A stretch of 64,000 nt of DNA from Clostridiales bacterium (GTDB lineage: Bacteria; Bacillota; Clostridia; Christensenellales; Aristaeellaceae), in assembly GCA_012729115.1 (NCBI GenBank), contig JAAYDR010000017.1:1-64000 (forward strand). Direction: 5' to 3'. A program made the position numbers and the translations under genes. The first letter of the stretch is position 1. The number at the start of each line of letters is the position of its first letter. Shown here in pieces: positions 4,260-26,997 of the stretch. The notes below the pieces were generated by a model that saw only the letters and a list, made by a program, of their open reading frames with translations, had not been told where the DNA came from and made no database searches.

Positions 4260-5105
4260 ATGCACAGCACCAACGAGATCAAACTCCTTGCCTGGAAAAT
4301 CCGCCGCGACATTGTGCAGATGATCGGATGCAAGGGCCAGACAGGGCATTTGGGCGGTTCCTGCTCCAGTGCCGAAATTGTTGCCGCTCTGTACGGACGG
4401 CAGATGCGCCTGCGGCCCGATGACCCCCAATGGGATGGCCGCGACAAATTTATCTACAGCAAAGGACATGCAGCCATTGCCCAGTATGCTGCCATGGCTG
4501 AAGTGGGGTATTTCCCGCGGGAAGAACTGTGGCGGGTGAAAGAGCTTGGCTCCATGCTGCAAGGGCATCCTGACCGGCTGAGGACGCCCGGCATTGATGC
4601 CGGCACAGGCAGCCTTGGGCAGGGGCTCAGCATTGCCGTGGGCATGGCCCTGGCCATGAGGCTTGATGGACACGACGACAACAAGGTGTATTGTGTGATG
4701 GGTGACGGAGAGATGGCAGAAGGCCAGATCTGGGAGGCAGCCATGGCAGCCGTCAACTTCAAACTGGACAATCTTGTGGGCATTGTGGACCGCAACCGGT
4801 TACAGGCTACGGGTTTTGTGGAGGAGCGCTTCAACACGAACCCCCTGGCTGAGAAGTGGGCCGGGTTCGGTTGGGCAGTCCTTGAGATCGACGGCCACGA
4901 TGTGGACGCCATTCTGGCCGCTTTTGAGCAGGCTGCCCAAACCAAAGGGGTGCCCACGGTCATCATCGCCAACACGGTCAAGGGCAAAGGGATCTGCTTT
5001 GCCGAAAATCAAGCGGCTTTCCACAACGGGCTGCTTTCCAGAGAACAATACGACTCTGCGCTGGCGGAACTGGATGCGGACATCGCCGGCCTATGCCAGG
5101 GATAA
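4260..5105 (+). CDS. Transketolase, N-terminal (TPP-binding) subunit
   Basis: A 281-residue protein matching the first half of a two-subunit transketolase. The thiamine pyrophosphate and Mg2+ motif runs from GDGEMAEGQIWEA to NLVGIVDRN, and the early KGHA and TGSLGQGLS segments are conserved transketolase signatures. It needs the next gene's product to make an active enzyme that transfers a two-carbon ketol unit between sugar phosphates. GGAGGG precedes the ATG. Split transketolases are often dedicated to unusual sugars, for example apulose 4-phosphate, rather than to the central pentose pathway. Confidence 0.9.
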   Translation: MHSTNEIKLLAWKIRRDIVQMIGCKGQTGHLGGSCSSAEIVAALYGRQMRLRPDDPQWDGRDKFIYSKGHAAIAQYAAMAEVGYFPREELWRVKELGSMLQGHPDRLRTPGIDAGTGSLGQGLSIAVGMALAMRLDGHDDNKVYCVMGDGEMAEGQIWEAAMAAVNFKLDNLVGIVDRNRLQATGFVEERFNTNPLAEKWAGFGWAVLEIDGHDVDAILAAFEQAAQTKGVPTVIIANTVKGKGICFAENQAAFHNGLLSREQYDSALAELDADIAGLCQG

Positions 5106-18111: not shown

Positions 18112-18990
18112 TTAGTGCGTCAGGTCCTCAAAGAACTCCCACGCCTGCTGATCCGTATACCCTTCATGAACAATCTTCCGGATTGCCTGGACCATCTCCA
18201 CGCTGTGATCGCTCTGGAAGATATTCCGGCCCATGTCCAAGCCCCGGGCTCCGCCCTGGATGGACTTATACGCCAGGTTCAGCGCTTCCCTCTCGGGGAG
18301 CTTCTTTCCGCCGGCCACCACGATGGGCACCGGGCAAGCCGCCACAATCTCCTCAAAGTTGTCGCAATAGTAGGTCTTGACCAACTGCACACCCATTTCG
18401 GCCACGATGCGGGTGGCAAGCTTGAAGAAGCGGTCCGTGCGCTCCATGTCCTTGCCCACGGCCACCACGCCCAGGGTGGGAATGGAGTAGCGGAAGCCCG
18501 CGTTGATGACCCGGCTCAGGTTATCGATGCTGGACAGCTGTCCGTCCGCGCCGATGAAGGTTTGAACGGCCATACAATCCGCGTTCATACGGATCGAGTC
18601 CTCGATATCCACAGCCACCACCTCGTGGCTCAGGTCTTCATTGAGCATGCTGGAGCCGCTGGAGACGCGCAGGGCGATGGCCTTGCGGTTGTCCGCGGGC
18701 ACGCAGGTCCGCAGAGCCCCCCGGGTGCCCATGAGGCAATCCACATAGGGCAGGAGCTTGGGGATCACGATGTCCAGACGTTCCAACCCGGCGGTGGAGC
18801 CCATGAAATAGCCGTGGTCAAAGGCGAACATAACCGTGTTTCCGCTCTTGGGATCGAAAATGTTGGCCAGGTGCTTCTTCATGCCCCAGTCCAGGCTGTT
18901 GGCACCTTTGACGTAGAATCCGCCCTGATTGGCGAAAGGCTCCTGAACGTGATAATCCTTGGCAACCTTGAGTCCGTCTTGATCTGCGAT
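18112..18990 (-). CDS. lsrF: 3-hydroxy-5-phosphonooxypentane-2,4-dione thiolase (LsrF), ATC start
   Basis: A class I aldolase-fold protein that acts late in AI-2 breakdown, transferring acetyl from phosphorylated AI-2 to CoA. The Schiff-base lysine is in VKTYY (Lys205 in a 292-residue product). AGGKKLPERE and DMGRNIFQSDH match LsrF strongly. The only ATG (18882) would remove 36 residues that align with the LsrF N-terminus, including KGANSLDWG. In frame there is no ATG, GTG or TTG before the upstream TAG; ATC at 18990 lies nine bases after GGAGG and gives 292 residues against 291 in E. coli. ATC is therefore the likely start. Confidence 0.85.
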   Translation of the reverse strand: MADQDGLKVAKDYHVQEPFANQGGFYVKGANSLDWGMKKHLANIFDPKSGNTVMFAFDHGYFMGSTAGLERLDIVIPKLLPYVDCLMGTRGALRTCVPADNRKAIALRVSSGSSMLNEDLSHEVVAVDIEDSIRMNADCMAVQTFIGADGQLSSIDNLSRVINAGFRYSIPTLGVVAVGKDMERTDRFFKLATRIVAEMGVQLVKTYYCDNFEEIVAACPVPIVVAGGKKLPEREALNLAYKSIQGGARGLDMGRNIFQSDHSVEMVQAIRKIVHEGYTDQQAWEFFEDLTH

Positions 18991-19047
18991 GGGAATCTAC
19001 CTCCTTCAATTGTCGAAGGGAAACACAAATGCTGCTTTGGGCCGCCC

Positions 19048-19109
19048 CGGCGGAGTGTCCGCCGCAGGCAACCATGGGCGGAGGCCGCGCCGCCAGGCAC
19101 AGCCTCCGC
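19048..19109 (-). repeat. Two stem-loops downstream of lsrB
   Basis: CGGCGGA-GTG-TCCGCCG (19048-19064) and GCGGAGGC/GCCTCCGC (19078-19085 with 19102-19109) lie between lsrB and lsrF. They lack U-tracts, so message stabilisation or partial attenuation is more likely than full termination. Confidence 0.55.
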
Positions 19110-19123
19110 GAAACCACGGATGA

Positions 19124-20185
19124 TTAGAAGTTGTAGTTGTCCATGTTCTCCACGGTGAACACCACGCGCTCGGGGAGCAGCACCACACCGCTGTCCTCGG
19201 CAGTGTAGGCGTTGGGATCCAGAACGGTGTTGGGCTCAACCGTCACGGTGCCGATTTCGGGCACATCGATGACGTCGCCAACCTTGATCTCCTGGCCGCT
19301 GGCCAGCAGGTTCGCCAGGTAGCAGCCCAGGGCGCCCTGAACCTTGCAATCCCACAGACCCCAGCGGGTCAGGATGCCGGCACGGCAATAGTCCTTCATG
19401 CTGTTGGGAGCGGCGAAACCAACGATGGAAACCTTGGTGGCGTCCAGCCCCAGGTTCTGAGCGGCCTGCGCCTGACCGGGCAGAGCAGTGGAGTCGTTGC
19501 AGATGATGCCGTCGATGTCAGCGTAGGTGGTCAGAATGGACTCGCCCACGGTGATGGCCTTCTCGGCGTCCTGCTCGGAGTAGTAGTTGTCGGGGAACAC
19601 GTTGATCCAGTTGGGGTACTTCTCGGCGATGTACTGCTCACCGGCCACATGCCAGCTGTTCTGGTCGGTTACGGTCGCCTGGCTGTAGTGCCACACGTAC
19701 TTGATGGCGTCCTTCTCGATGTCCTTGCCGCGCTCGGTGAGGCTGGTAGCCAGCATATCCACCAGCATCTGGCCCAGCTGCTCAGGGGTGCCCTGGCTGA
19801 CCATGATGGCGCGACGCTCGGGGTTGGAGTCGGAGTCCCAGGTGGTGACGACTAGGCCAGCCTCAGCGGCTTCCTTCAGAGCGTCGTCCACGCCGGCGGC
19901 ATCAACGGTGGAGATGCAGATGGCGTCCGCGCCGCTGGTGATGGCATTCTGGATGATGGCCACCTGGTTGGCAGCAGAAGCTTCGGGGTTGCCGTCGTAG
20001 GTGACGGTGAAGCCGTTCTTAGCAGCAAATTCCTGAGCGCCCACGTTGGCGGACTCAAAGAAGGCGTTGCCGGAGAGCTTGGGGATGAAGACGACGTTGA
20101 TGTTTGCGGCTGAAGCGGAAGCCATCATGGCCACGCACAGCGCAAGGGCCATCATGGCAGCCAGGAGTTTGGAGAACCTTTTCAT
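19124..20185 (-). CDS. lsrB: AI-2 (autoinducer-2) binding protein LsrB
   Basis: A 353-residue exported binding protein with a signal peptide (1-26, MASASA) and no lipobox. It aligns with LsrB throughout, including the C-terminal GVVLLPERVVF. Residues matching the AI-2 ligands of Salmonella LsrB are Lys36 (IPKL), Asp117 (TWDSD), Asp174 and Gln175 (TVTDQN) and Pro236 (ALPGQ); the position equal to Ala222 is Gln238. It hands AI-2 to LsrCD. The start at 20185 follows GGGAGGG. Related sugar-binding proteins differ at several of these positions. Confidence 0.88.
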   Translation of the reverse strand: MKRFSKLLAAMMALALCVAMMASASAANINVVFIPKLSGNAFFESANVGAQEFAAKNGFTVTYDGNPEASAANQVAIIQNAITSGADAICISTVDAAGVDDALKEAAEAGLVVTTWDSDSNPERRAIMVSQGTPEQLGQMLVDMLATSLTERGKDIEKDAIKYVWHYSQATVTDQNSWHVAGEQYIAEKYPNWINVFPDNYYSEQDAEKAITVGESILTTYADIDGIICNDSTALPGQAQAAQNLGLDATKVSIVGFAAPNSMKDYCRAGILTRWGLWDCKVQGALGCYLANLLASGQEIKVGDVIDVPEIGTVTVEPNTVLDPNAYTAEDSGVVLLPERVVFTVENMDNYNF

Positions 20186-20255: not shown

Positions 20256-21272
20256 TCAGCTACCGCCGACCATCTTTTGCCGCCGTTTGCGGCTGAATAA
20301 CTTGCGGAGCTTGGGGTTGGTGCCGGCAAAGCGGAAGGACACCGTCAGCACCAGCAAAATGCCCACCGGAATGTCCAAATACTGGGTGGAAAGGCCGTTG
20401 AGGCTCAGGCCGATCCTCAGGAATCCCACCGCCAGCGCAGCCAGGGCCGAGCCAATGACGCCGCCGCTGCCGCCCAGGTTGCTGGTGCCTCCCAGCACAA
20501 CGGCGGTGATGATGGGCAAGGTGTACTCGGCACCCATATCCGCCTTGGCTGTGCCCAGGTATGCCGTCAGCAGAACACCAGCGATGGATGCGCTCAGGCC
20601 GGAGAGCATGTAGGTGGACATCACCACCGCGCGGGTGTTGATGCCGCTGAACTCTGCCGCGTTGACATTGACCCCGCACAGAAATATCTTGCGGCCGTAG
20701 TTGGTGCGGTGGAGCAGAATGTAGCTGAGGATCACCAGAACCAAGAAGATCACAAACTGCATGGGTACGGCACCAAAGAGCTCGGTTTTGCTGAGGGCCC
20801 GGAAGGCGGCGGGGAAATCGCTGATTCCCTGATACGCCGCGTTGGAGCTCATGTTGGAAACCGCCAGGGCCATGCCGGAGTAGAGGAAGGAGCCGCCCAG
20901 CGTGATGACCATGGGCTGCACCCCCGTGTACGCCACGAAGAATCCGCTCAGCGCTCCGCACAGCGCACCGGCAACCAGCGAGAGGACACATGCCACAAAA
21001 ATGTTCAGCCCTGCGTCATGCCACAGCACACCCACCATGATGCTGGTCAGCCCCACGATCGAGCCGGCCTGGATGTCGATGCCGCCGGTAATCATCACAA
21101 AGGTGACAAACAGGGAGATGATGCACACCGGCACAAACTGGTTAAGCCCGCTGAAGAGGCGCTTGATGTTCAGAAACTTCGGGTTCAGGGTGCCAAACAC
21201 GACAAACTCCACCAGGATTACCAGCACCAGGATGGTTTCCCAGCGCAGGAAGAGCTTCTTTACCTTATTCAT
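20256..21272 (-). CDS. lsrD: AI-2 importer permease LsrD
   Basis: A 338-residue permease of the RbsC/BPD_transp_2 type with eight to ten hydrophobic segments. Conserved features are the MITGGIDIQAGSIVGL segment near the N-terminus and the GGTSNLGGSGGVIGSALA coupling loop. The ATG at 21272 overlaps the end of lsrC by 8 bp. It forms a heterodimeric channel with LsrC. Confidence 0.88.
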   Translation of the reverse strand: MNKVKKLFLRWETILVLVILVEFVVFGTLNPKFLNIKRLFSGLNQFVPVCIISLFVTFVMITGGIDIQAGSIVGLTSIMVGVLWHDAGLNIFVACVLSLVAGALCGALSGFFVAYTGVQPMVITLGGSFLYSGMALAVSNMSSNAAYQGISDFPAAFRALSKTELFGAVPMQFVIFLVLVILSYILLHRTNYGRKIFLCGVNVNAAEFSGINTRAVVMSTYMLSGLSASIAGVLLTAYLGTAKADMGAEYTLPIITAVVLGGTSNLGGSGGVIGSALAALAVGFLRIGLSLNGLSTQYLDIPVGILLVLTVSFRFAGTNPKLRKLFSRKRRQKMVGGS

Positions 21273-22284
21273 GCGCTGCCGCCCCCTTTTCCCCATCGGT
21301 AGCATGCTGGGTTCTGGCTGCCAGGCGCAGCCGTCTGGCCTGCTCAACCGCACGCCTGCGGATAAGCGCGTCGGATACGACGATGATGATGAGCAATACG
21401 CCGGTTATGGTATCGTCATAATTGGAGGAAAAGCCGATGAACACCAGCACCCTGCTTATGGAGGCCATGATGGCCGCGCCCACCCCGGCGCCTAAGACTG
21501 TGCCTACGCCGCCGGTGAGGCTGATGCCGCCCAGCACGCAGGCCGCGATAACCTTCATCTCGTAGCCGTTGCCGGCGATAGGTGTCACAAAGCCCACCCG
21601 GCTTACATACAGTGCGCCGCCCACAGCCGCCAGAATGCCGCACAGGGCAAAGGAAGCGAACTTGGTCATGTCCACGGGAATGCCCAGCAGTGTGGCTCCG
21701 CCGATGTTGTCCCCCACCGCGGCCATGTAGCGGCCCCGCTTGGTGCGGGTCAGGATCAGGTGGGCTCCTACAATCAGCAGGATTGCACCCAGGTAGAAAT
21801 AGGTAATGCTGCCAAAGAGCCTGCCTTGGGAAAGGTTCTTAAAATCAAAGGGGATGTTTTCCACCCATTTTCCATTGGTATACACATAAATAAGCCCGCG
21901 AACGATGCCGTTGATGCCCAGGGTCATAATAATGGAAGGAATCTTCAGCACGGTGACACCAAAGCCGTTGATCAGGCCAATGGCCAGCCCGATGGCCAGG
22001 GCCGCGCCGATGGCCAGGAGCCAGGGCTGGCCGTCCCGGATCATGGAACCGGAGACCGCCGCCGCCATGCCCAAGGTTGCGCCTACGGAGACATCGATCT
22101 CACCGGTGATGATGACCAACGCCACACCGACGGCCACCACCGTGTACACGACGCTGCTGTTGAGGCACAACCAGATGTTCCCCGGTGACAGAAAGGCCGG
22201 ATTGATGGCTCCCACCCCAAGGAACATAAGGATGATGAAAGCCACCGCCGTGATTTCCCGGGAATGCAGAAGCTTCTTAAGCAT
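21265..22284 (-). CDS. lsrC: AI-2 importer permease LsrC
   Basis: A 339-residue membrane protein of the same permease family. It has the IITGEIDVSVGATLG segment and the coupling loop GGISLTGGVGTVLGAGVG. The ATG at 22284 follows GGGAG and overlaps lsrA by 8 bp, so the ATPase and both permeases are translationally coupled. Order lsrA-lsrC-lsrD-lsrB-lsrF equals the classical lsr operon. Confidence 0.88.
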   Translation of the reverse strand: MLKKLLHSREITAVAFIILMFLGVGAINPAFLSPGNIWLCLNSSVVYTVVAVGVALVIITGEIDVSVGATLGMAAAVSGSMIRDGQPWLLAIGAALAIGLAIGLINGFGVTVLKIPSIIMTLGINGIVRGLIYVYTNGKWVENIPFDFKNLSQGRLFGSITYFYLGAILLIVGAHLILTRTKRGRYMAAVGDNIGGATLLGIPVDMTKFASFALCGILAAVGGALYVSRVGFVTPIAGNGYEMKVIAACVLGGISLTGGVGTVLGAGVGAAIMASISRVLVFIGFSSNYDDTITGVLLIIIVVSDALIRRRAVEQARRLRLAARTQHATDGEKGAAAHE

Positions 22285-23797
22285 TTTGAGCACTCCCTTC
22301 CGCAACGCCAAAGGCGGCCGCCATCAGGTTGTCCTGGCTGATATCGCATTTGGCAAACTCATGGTTGATGCGCCCGCAGTACATGGTGACAGCCCGGTCG
22401 CTGAGTTCCACAATTTCCTCCATGTCCGAGGATATCAACAGGATCGCGACCCCCTGCTCCTTGAGCTGCTCGATGATGGTATACACATCGCCCCGGGCCG
22501 CCGCGTCAATGCCGCGGGTGGGTTCGTCCAGAATCAGCACCTTGGGGCCGGTAGACAGGCATCGGGCAATGACCACCTTCTGCTGGTTGCCGCCCGAGAG
22601 AGATACGATGAGCTGGTCCTGACCTGTTACCTTGGTGCGGAAGGCTGTGATGAACTTATCGGTGATCCTGCGCTCCTCCCGGAAGTTGATGAAGCACTTG
22701 GACATGTTGTCCAGGTTGGCGGCGGTGGTGTTGGCAGCCACGTTGCTGATGCGGAAGATGCCGTTTAAAAATCGGTCCTCGGCTACGTAATTGAGGCCTG
22801 CCTCCAGCATCTTGCGTGTGGAAAGGCCGGTTACGTCCTTGCCCTGGATCAGGACCTTGCCGCTGATCACCGGGTAGCGGCCAAAAACCGTGGTGGCCAG
22901 CTCCGTTCGTCCCGCGCCTACCACACCGGCCAGGCCCAGAATCTCTCCAGGATATACCTTCAAACTAACATCGCTAAACCCATACCCGGTGAGATGCTCG
23001 ATGGAGAGGGCAGGCTGGAGGCCTTCGTAGGACACATTCTTACAGCTGAACTGGTTGTTGGTGATTTCCACATTGGAGGGCAGCAATCCCGCCACCAGCA
23101 TTTCCCGTGTGAAATCGGAGACCGGGCCGTTTAGGGTAATCATTCCGTCCCGCATGATGAGCACCCGGTCGGCAATTTGAAATACCTCGGTCAGGCGATG
23201 GGTGATATAGATGATGCTGATGCCCTTGGCTTTCAGATCCTCTACGATCTTGAAAAGGCTCTGCACCTCATTGAAGGTGAGGGAACTGGTGGGTTCGTCC
23301 AAAATAAGCAGCCGGGCGTCCCGCATCAGCCCCCGCAGAAGCTCCACCAACTGCTGCTCCGCAATGGACAGCGTGGCGGCCTTTCGGCTTAAATCCATCT
23401 TCCAGCCCAAGTGGTCCAGCAGCGTGATGAGCCTTCTGTGCAAGTCGGAGCTTTTTTCCATAAAGCCCATGAGCACGTTTTCCTCAACGGTCATATTGGG
23501 AAAGAGCATGGGCTCCTGAGGCACCAGGTAAATTCCCGCGGCCAGGGAAGCGGAGGGCTTGCCCAGTTTGGCGGCCTTTCCTTCCAGAAAAACCTCGCCG
23601 TCATCGGGCTGATAAATGCCCATGATGATTTTCACCAGGGTGCTCTTGCCGGCTCCGTTGCCACCAATCAGCGCCACCACGGAGCCTTTGGCAATGTCCA
23701 TGTCGATGCCCTTGAGCACGCTGTTGGACCCGAAGGCCTTGGTGATACCCCGCACCGAGAGCATGGCATCTTCCGGCAGCCGTATTGCTTCACTCAT
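22277..23797 (-). CDS. lsrA: AI-2 importer ATPase LsrA
   Basis: A 506-residue double ABC cassette of the sugar-importer type. The first half has Walker A GGNGAGKST and signature LSIAEQQ; the second has a diverged Walker A (GVVGAGRTE), signature LSGGNQQK and Walker B VLILDEPTRGID. The degenerate second Walker A is normal in RbsA/LsrA proteins. The ATG follows GGGGG; an in-frame TTG directly before it is less likely. First gene of the minus-strand lsr operon. Confidence 0.9.
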   Translation of the reverse strand: MSEAIRLPEDAMLSVRGITKAFGSNSVLKGIDMDIAKGSVVALIGGNGAGKSTLVKIIMGIYQPDDGEVFLEGKAAKLGKPSASLAAGIYLVPQEPMLFPNMTVEENVLMGFMEKSSDLHRRLITLLDHLGWKMDLSRKAATLSIAEQQLVELLRGLMRDARLLILDEPTSSLTFNEVQSLFKIVEDLKAKGISIIYITHRLTEVFQIADRVLIMRDGMITLNGPVSDFTREMLVAGLLPSNVEITNNQFSCKNVSYEGLQPALSIEHLTGYGFSDVSLKVYPGEILGLAGVVGAGRTELATTVFGRYPVISGKVLIQGKDVTGLSTRKMLEAGLNYVAEDRFLNGIFRISNVAANTTAANLDNMSKCFINFREERRITDKFITAFRTKVTGQDQLIVSLSGGNQQKVVIARCLSTGPKVLILDEPTRGIDAAARGDVYTIIEQLKEQGVAILLISSDMEEIVELSDRAVTMYCGRINHEFAKCDISQDNLMAAAFGVAEGSAQNA

Positions 23798-23858
23798 CAA
23801 ATTGAACCCCCATTGGACTAAACAAATGTTTCAACTTCGCCTTTTTATTCCTGGTGAC

Positions 23859-24134: not shown

Positions 24135-25058
24135 ATGGACTACGAAGAATCGCTGATGATCAAAATCGCGTGGTACTATTATTTTGAGAATTTGACCCAG
24201 CAAAGCGTGGCCGACACCCTGGGAATCACCCGCATGCGGGTAATCAGGCTGCTGGAAAAGGCGCGGCAGACCGGCATCATCCAGTTTCACCTGCGCAAGG
24301 ACGGCGAAAACCGTATGAAGCTGGAGCGGGGTCTCATGGACGCATATGGGCTGAAAGACGCCTTTATCGTGCCTTCCTCCCAGGACAAAAGCCAGATCAA
24401 CGCTGGGATCGCAGAGGCTGCCAGCATGTACATCACCGAGCGCCTCACAGAACATAGCCTCATTAATATGGGCTATGGGGACACCCCAAGCCGCATTCTC
24501 AACAACCTGGCGACTTTGGCGGAGCGGCCCATTACCTGCGTTTCGTTAACCGGAGGGGTCAGCTACTACCTGCCCGATACCCGCAGCAACGTATTCAATG
24601 CCAAGCTGCACCTGATTCCCACCCCGCTATTAGCCAGCAGCAAGGAGATGGCGGACGCCATGCGCCAGGAGGCCAGCGTCATGGAGGTCAGCCGCATGAT
24701 CTCCCTGGCTCAGCTCACCGTGGTGGGCATCGGGGCCATGCACGAGACGGCAACCATCTTCAAGACCGGCATCCTCAACCGCAATGATTTCCTTTATTTA
24801 CAGATGCAGGGGGCTGTGGGCGATCTCCTGAGCCATTTTTTTGATAAGGATGGCAACCTGATCGAGACCCCCCTGGAAAGCCGGCTGATCAGCACGTCCC
24901 TTACCAAACTGAAGGAACTGCAAAACGTAATTGGCGTGGCTGCCGGGGACGTGAAGGTGGATGCCATCCGCGCCGCCCTCAAGGGAGGATACCTGGACGT
25001 GCTGATCACCGACGACCGCACCGCAAGCCGGCTTTTGGATGAGGATAAGGAGGTATAA
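24135..25058 (+). CDS. lsrR: SorC-family regulator LsrR
   Basis: A 307-residue SorC/DeoR-type regulator. The HTH (QQSVADTLGITRMRVIRLLEKARQ region, residues 18-42) is followed by a sugar-binding domain with the GGVSYYLPD and QGAVGDLL segments. In characterised systems LsrR represses lsr genes until phospho-AI-2 binds. It lies divergent to lsrA and three bases upstream of lsrK, fitting this role. Confidence 0.87.
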   Translation: MDYEESLMIKIAWYYYFENLTQQSVADTLGITRMRVIRLLEKARQTGIIQFHLRKDGENRMKLERGLMDAYGLKDAFIVPSSQDKSQINAGIAEAASMYITERLTEHSLINMGYGDTPSRILNNLATLAERPITCVSLTGGVSYYLPDTRSNVFNAKLHLIPTPLLASSKEMADAMRQEASVMEVSRMISLAQLTVVGIGAMHETATIFKTGILNRNDFLYLQMQGAVGDLLSHFFDKDGNLIETPLESRLISTSLTKLKELQNVIGVAAGDVKVDAIRAALKGGYLDVLITDDRTASRLLDEDKEV

Positions 25059-25061
25059 GAA

Positions 25062-26627
25062 ATGACGAAGCAATACTTAATGGCCATCGACGCGGGCACC
25101 GGAAGCGTCCGGGCCGTACTGTTTGACACCCATGGAGCTCAGATAGGTTGCGTCCAGCAAGAGTGGACCCATCAGGAAGACCCCCGCTATCCCGGCAGCA
25201 TGGATTTTGACTGGGTGAACGGCTGGGACCTGGCCAGAGGGTGCATCCGGAATGTCTTGAAGGAAACAGGCGTCGCTCCCCAGGACATAGCGGCGGTAAG
25301 CACCACCTGCATGCGGGAGGGCATTGTCCTCTACGATGCCCAGGGCATCGAGCTTTGGGCCTGCGCCAACGTGGACGCTCGCAGCAACGATGAGGTAGCC
25401 CAGCTGATTGCCATGAACCCCGAGCTGGAGAAGGAAATCTACGCCATCTCCGGCCAGACCTACGCCCTGGGAGCCCTGCCCCGCATCCTGTGGGTGAAGA
25501 ACAAGATGCCGGATCTCTATGAAAAGGTTGCCACGGTGGGCATGTTCAACGACTGGCTCATCTACAAGCTCACAGGCGTCCTGAAGGTGGAGCCCAGCAA
25601 CGGCAGCACCACCGGCATCTTTGATCTTAGGAGCCGTGCCTGGGACAGTGCCATCATGACAAAGGTGGGCCTGAAGGATGGCATCTTCCCTCCTGTGGCC
25701 GAGTGCGGTGAGCCGGTGGGCAAGGTCAATGAAAAGGGCGCCGCGGACACAGGTCTGGCGGTGGGCACATTGGTGGTGGCCGGGGGTGGGGACGCCCAGC
25801 TGGGATGCATCGGCGTAGGCGTAGTGGACCGCAGCCAGGCCGCTGTGTTCGGCGGCAGCTTTTGGCAGTACGAGTTTAACACCGATCAGGCCGGAACCGA
25901 TCCCAAGTGCCGGGTGCGGGTCAACTGTCACGCTGTTCCCGGCATGTGGCAGTACGAAGCCATCGCCTTTAAGCCCGGCCTGGCCATGCGTTGGTACCGG
26001 GACGCCTTCTGCCAGGATGAAATCCGCCGGGCGAAGGAACTGGGCACGGACCCCTACGTACTTATGAATGCGGAGGCGGAAAAGATTCCCGCCGGCTGCT
26101 ACGGCATGATGTGCGCCTTCAGCGATGTGATGAACTTCATCTCATGGAAGCACGCAGCCCCCACCTTCACGAATTTTGACTTTGACCCGGAGCGCTTCAA
26201 CAAGTATACTTTCTACCGCGCCATCATGGAAAACAGCGCCATGATTACCAAGGGTCATCTGGAGCTGGTTTTGGAAGCCACCGGCAACGCCCCCCAGGAG
26301 ATCGTATTTGCCGGCGGGGCCAGCAAGGGCGGGGTCTGGTGCCAGATACTGGCGGATGTGCTGGGCCTACCTGTGAAGGTCCCCCTGGTCAAGGAAGCCA
26401 CGGCCTTGGGTGCGGCGATTCTGGCCGGGCATGGGGCCGGCATCTATCCCGACATCGCCCAGGCTGCCCGGGAGCTGGTCCGCTGGGAGCGCACCTACCA
26501 GCCCAATGCGGAAAATCACAAGCGCTACGAAGAGATGTACGCGCCCTGGCGCGAGGTATATCAAGCTCAGCTTGCCCTGAGCGACCGCGGCCTGACCCGC
26601 TATATGTGGGTTGCACCCGGACTGTAA
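25062..26627 (+). CDS. lsrK: Autoinducer-2 kinase LsrK
   Basis: A 521-residue FGGY-family carbohydrate kinase. Its N-terminus (LMAIDAGTGSVRAVLFD) holds the phosphate loop, and the second domain has FAGGASKGGVWCQILADVLG, the FGGY signature. Length and gene context agree with LsrK (530 residues in E. coli), which phosphorylates AI-2 in the cytoplasm and traps it. The RBS is AAGGAGG overlapping the lsrR end. Alone it could be a xylulokinase-like enzyme; context decides. Confidence 0.87.
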   Translation: MTKQYLMAIDAGTGSVRAVLFDTHGAQIGCVQQEWTHQEDPRYPGSMDFDWVNGWDLARGCIRNVLKETGVAPQDIAAVSTTCMREGIVLYDAQGIELWACANVDARSNDEVAQLIAMNPELEKEIYAISGQTYALGALPRILWVKNKMPDLYEKVATVGMFNDWLIYKLTGVLKVEPSNGSTTGIFDLRSRAWDSAIMTKVGLKDGIFPPVAECGEPVGKVNEKGAADTGLAVGTLVVAGGGDAQLGCIGVGVVDRSQAAVFGGSFWQYEFNTDQAGTDPKCRVRVNCHAVPGMWQYEAIAFKPGLAMRWYRDAFCQDEIRRAKELGTDPYVLMNAEAEKIPAGCYGMMCAFSDVMNFISWKHAAPTFTNFDFDPERFNKYTFYRAIMENSAMITKGHLELVLEATGNAPQEIVFAGGASKGGVWCQILADVLGLPVKVPLVKEATALGAAILAGHGAGIYPDIAQAARELVRWERTYQPNAENHKRYEEMYAPWREVYQAQLALSDRGLTRYMWVAPGL

Positions 26628-26646
26628 TATATGGAGGGGAATCGGT

Positions 26647-26997
26647 ATGTTTATCATCCACGAGAGTGAACGGGAATATCGCTTTGGTGACAGCGGCCCC
26701 AAATATCTGATGAAGGGCCCGCGCATGAATTTTGCCCTGGTTCAGTTTCAGCCGGGGCAGGATTTCAAGGCGCATTACCATCATGTGATGGAGGAGAACT
26801 TTTTTATCCTGGAGGGAGAAGTGGACATTGTCGTGGATGGTGTGATGCATCACCTCACCCAAGGGCAGCTGATCCATATTGAGCCCATGGAGATCCATTA
26901 TCTGATCAACAATTCGGATCGTGCCGTGAAAATGATTTCCACCCTGGCCCCGTATACGGATCCTGACAAGGTGGATGTTGAGGATTACAAGTACTGA
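26647..26997 (+). CDS. Cupin-domain protein in the lsr cluster
   Basis: A 116-residue single-domain cupin. Motif 1 is HYHHVMEENFFILEGE with the metal-binding His and Glu residues, and motif 2 is IEPMEIHYLIN with a further His. GGAGGGG precedes the ATG, 20 bp after lsrK. No LsrG (phospho-AI-2 isomerase) is present, so this protein might take that isomerase role, or act on AI-2 or another sugar; this is inference from position only. Confidence 0.7.
   Translation: MFIIHESEREYRFGDSGPKYLMKGPRMNFALVQFQPGQDFKAHYHHVMEENFFILEGEVDIVVDGVMHHLTQGQLIHIEPMEIHYLINNSDRAVKMISTLAPYTDPDKVDVEDYKY

Follow-up and report, generated by a model that had tools for sequence, protein, structure and literature searches.

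An ATC codon at the lsrF start site of a Clostridiales draft genome, at a position where homologues carry ATG

The window analyzed here, a stretch of 64,000 nucleotides from a Clostridiales bacterium, carries the genes of an lsr system. On the minus strand, lsrF (18112..18990, 292 codons counted from the ATC plus a stop), the gene for an enzyme that degrades the quorum-sensing signal AI-2 (3-hydroxy-5-phosphonooxypentane-2,4-dione thiolase), is preceded by its immediate upstream neighbor lsrB, which encodes the signal-binding protein (19124..20185; we picked its start, the ATG of MKRFSK, by eye), and by the transporter genes lsrD, lsrC and lsrA (20256..23800). The genes for the regulator LsrR (24135..25058) and the AI-2 kinase LsrK (25062..26627) are divergent, on the plus strand. 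The lsrACDB transporter genes, lsrR and lsrK are all intact, and most have counterparts next to lsrF in relatives. Between lsrB and lsrF lies a GC-rich inverted repeat (GCGGAGGC/GCCTCCGC; 19078-19109, minus strand), and some relatives seem to carry another hairpin at this position; the lsrB-lsrF hairpin possibly sets the ratio of the two products. A search of the organism's own genome (G000) for an LsrG-type protein (ABM domain, PF03992) gave no match, a difference from the E. coli LsrF system (3gkf, PMC2728841), and such a protein was likewise absent from five of the six relatives searched. A small cupin gene follows lsrK (26611-26997, plus strand), in a position conserved in relatives, and its product might take the LsrG role, no LsrG-type protein having been found.

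The start region of lsrF reads ...attGAAGGAGGTAGATTCCC ATC GCAGATCAAGACGGACTC... on the minus strand. A Shine-Dalgarno sequence, AAGGAGGT (18999..19006), matches the anti-Shine-Dalgarno over 8 nt, and its GGAGG (19004-19000) ends 9 nt before an in-frame ATC (18988..18990). Upstream, the frame is closed by a TAG read directly from the sequence (18997..18999), and just two codons, ATT and CCC, separate this stop from the ATC. The first canonical in-frame start is the ATG of Met37 (18880..18882), from which mechanical prediction opens a 256-residue frame, 36 codons inside the gene. This arrangement, including the lack of any in-frame ATG, GTG or TTG between the TAG and Met37, is as the initial annotation had described it, and it leaves no canonical start able to yield the conserved LsrF N-terminus, since TAG, ATT, CCC and ATC are what precede the conserved residues. 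Other start positions were considered and rejected. The TAG at 18999-18997 rules out a start farther upstream; the ATT (18994..18996), an alternative non-canonical start, sits only 3 nt from GGAGG and does not align with the ATGs of homologues; a start in another frame followed by a shift is contradicted by homology that is unbroken up to codon 2; and a chimeric join at the start is contradicted by the leader and lsrB, both of which align with relatives.

That the protein is LsrF follows from a curated NCBIfam model and from solved structures. Translated from the ATC, the frame has 292 residues, the length first proposed for it, and scores 408.1 bits (cut-off 297) against NF006081, the LsrF equivalog model, with residues 2-290 matched to profile positions 2-289 of 291. 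E. coli LsrF (3gkf) aligns with it from residue 2 (E=2.6e-93), so the residues before the first ATG do correspond to the LsrF-specific N-terminal segment, as had been suspected. MJ0400-type aldolases and the archaeal FBP aldolase, by comparison, align with this protein only from residue 38-44. In family, length and N-terminal segment the protein is thus like E. coli LsrF (PMC2728841); the difference is that the E. coli gene is annotated with a canonical Met start and the present gene has ATC.

We compared the start codon with those of homologues drawn from related genomes and from a public collection sampled at one genome per species. The aligned codon was ATG in all 88 homologues, which span the same extent; because some of these represent one genome reached by both routes, only 79 of the proteins, apart from the query, are distinct, and the two ATC entries in the output were the window itself, retrieved twice. 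A variant of ADKDGLK follows the ATG in nearly all of the 88, and every one of the five congeners that carry lsrF has ATG. The alignment has 129 columns with a conservation of 98% or more, and position 1, the start codon, is the single one of these at which the window deviates. Relative to its counterpart in L011, whose protein is 91% identical, codons 2-36 show 14 synonymous and 4 amino-acid differences and the remainder of the gene 89 and 21, respectively. The mostly synonymous change in codons 2-36 indicates that the N-terminus has escaped the decay expected of untranslated sequence; the reading frame and these codons are intact, as are the remaining lsr genes. With ATG at exactly this place in 88 of 88 homologues, we regard the codon at 18990-18988 as the true lsrF start site, as the initial annotation had placed it. 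What is new is a single G-to-C difference at its third base, seen in this draft genome alone. The check on relatives thus returned ATG in every related species and ATC in none (0/88), a result that excludes the ATC as a lineage-wide trait and gives no sign of selection for it. Viral contigs yielded no relative.

The duplex calculated between AAGGAGGT and the anti-Shine-Dalgarno has an energy of -15.5 kcal/mol, the strongest of the 89 lsrF sequences (median -9.7). Two near relatives, L011 and L006, reach -13.5 kcal/mol, which makes the strong Shine-Dalgarno largely ancestral and not a response to the ATC.

Is the substitution real? The ATC is read in one assembly, a draft of 124 contigs, and a base-calling, assembly or minor-allele error in a cell that carries ATG is a possibility to be taken seriously, although we hold it less probable than a true change. 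The codon is unique among 89 sequences, and the rest of lsrF shows no relaxation, as would be expected if ATG were really present. Substitution at the third base of a start codon is also rare: of 61,358 ancestral ATG starts, two became CUG and one AUU in annotated genomes (PMC5622118), a count biased by annotators' avoidance of such starts, which hides them. Against an error, the flanking leader, lsrB and lsrF align to relatives without join or frameshift, and the window contains no Ns. In a sample of the organism's own genome, 50 genes had a start that could be tested against relatives; no frameshift was found among them, and none but lsrF showed a convincing loss of its start. That verdict on lsrF comes from the cleaner of two comparisons, the noisier one having listed antisense shadows; the other rows that suggested start loss were dismissed by eye, because a canonical start lay no more than 8 codons away or because the alignment extended into the gene upstream or into an antisense frame. 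The sampled genes speak against a badly damaged assembly, and these findings together limit gross errors, but all are compatible with a single wrong base. On balance we consider it somewhat more likely that ATG truly mutated to ATC, with lower LsrF synthesis as the result, than that the base is an error, because none of the other 88 sequences has Shine-Dalgarno pairing as strong and because AUC and AUU occur as infC starts in this lineage. Counting together the cases of a working and of a decaying gene, we would lean toward the substitution being genuine. Both readings offered at the outset, lower LsrF synthesis and sequencing error, therefore survive, with no sign of a regulatory role.

A genuine substitution could also be a loss-of-start mutation, the first step in the decay of lsrF in a lineage to which the lsr system is dispensable. 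The distribution of the gene is patchy (6 of the 17 genomes of the genus), the organism's own genome yielded no LsrG-type protein, and one congener (genome G005) has an lsrA split by a frameshift (L124, about 4714-4800), a sign perhaps that its lsr operon is decaying or that its assembly is wrong at this point. We nevertheless think decay unlikely, as lsrF and its operon show no other lesion, the conserved columns are intact, and an AUC behind such a Shine-Dalgarno probably retains some activity (PMC12350097, PMC13009471). Least probable is translation from Met37 (18882), which would leave a 256-residue aldolase core: Met37 is the first canonical start in the frame, the MJ0400 and archaeal FBP aldolase alignments indicate that such a core could fold, and archaeal decamers assemble without the N-terminal swap (PMC2728841), but we found no Shine-Dalgarno at usable spacing before it, the 36 codons it would discard remain conserved, and the product would lose the residues equivalent to E. 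coli 10-24, which swap between pentamers, and part of the capping helix at 34-43 (PMC2728841), so that Met37 initiation is unlikely to replace the normal LsrF product.

Weak non-canonical starts have precedents, and the lsrF ATC adds an example to these (infC, rnhC, sigR and the rsbW mutants) rather than a new mechanism. The best known is infC, which starts with ATT in E. coli and ATC in Streptomyces as part of IF3 autoregulation, IF3 repressing non-canonical starts of this kind (PMC5472188). In the order to which the organism belongs, infC starts with ATC or ATT after a strong Shine-Dalgarno, and in the relatives L094, L095, L113, L120, L091, L096 and L097 the site is without any ATG. In the window's genus, the GGAGG of infC is followed after 3 nt by an in-frame ATG and after 9 nt by an ATC, either of which could be the start. 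The organism's own infC lies on contig C10 near 35.7-36.0 kb (L104, L138), and ATGGATATCAACGAGCC at this gene is identical among the genus members seen. The lsrF codon likewise follows a strong Shine-Dalgarno, at the spacing of the own-genome infC ATC; however, weak starts of infC are found again and again in different phyla and are part of a feedback loop (PMC5472188), whereas the lsrF ATC is found in a single genome. Nor are ATC starts a genome-wide habit: a Shine-Dalgarno scan of a 364 kb sample of the own genome gave infC as the sole convincing second case, although the scan probably passed over lsrF, where a longer antisense frame had been retained.

Outside infC, ATC starts had initially been called almost unknown, a statement that needs correcting, as the ATC start of Listeria rnhC is experimentally confirmed (PMC13068326). 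PMC12350097, citing Hecht et al., places AUC among the seven strongest start codons of E. coli. In Listeria, rsbW mutants whose ATG start was changed to ATA or ATT retain expression at a reduced level (PMC13068326); lsrF, too, appears to carry a recent third-base change in a conserved ATG, from which lower translation would be expected, but the rsbW mutants were proven by sequencing, selection and reporters and the lsrF ATC is read from a consensus sequence. The pairing of a weak start with an extended Shine-Dalgarno recurs in S. aureus citZ (AUA), cvfC1 (AUU) and ccpN (AUA), where weak non-canonical starts give roughly 10-30% of AUG output (PMC13009471), and in Streptomyces sigR (GTC; PMC5472188). 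The citZ AUA is confined to one S. aureus strain lineage, which resembles the single-genome ATC of lsrF (PMC13009471). Ribosome profiling, reporters or protein evidence demonstrated initiation at these starts; at the lsrF ATC it is predicted from sequence.

Our main reading, to which we assign a probability of about one half, is that the true lsrF start recently mutated from ATG to ATC and still initiates weakly, lowering LsrF output. The third base would have changed from G to C recently in this lineage; the strong Shine-Dalgarno would keep the ribosome at the right distance from the AUC, where initiator tRNA would still start weakly, subject to IF3 discrimination; and synthesis of full-length, Met-started LsrF would drop to a fraction of its usual rate. 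In Salmonella and E. coli, lsrF mutation or lack of LsrF raises lsr transcription, which has been read as persistence of phospho-AI-2 (PMC2728841), and a weak lsrF start would push in the same direction. If LsrF acts here as it does there, less of it would prolong both phospho-AI-2 and induction of the lsr operon. That the switch is a species-specific adaptation, placing LsrF under IF3 discrimination so that a lowered level lengthens the AI-2 response, is a doubtful extension of this reading.

The significance is modest in scope until the lsrF base is verified; if the base is not real, the start codon holds an ordinary consensus error. In any case, infC of this order is shown to have ATC or ATT starts. 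Gene callers limited to ATG, GTG and TTG would truncate such genes, as they would lsrF here by 36 residues. If the substitution is real, a gene of signaling metabolism would have been caught with an ATC start, its ancestral state known and one base away.
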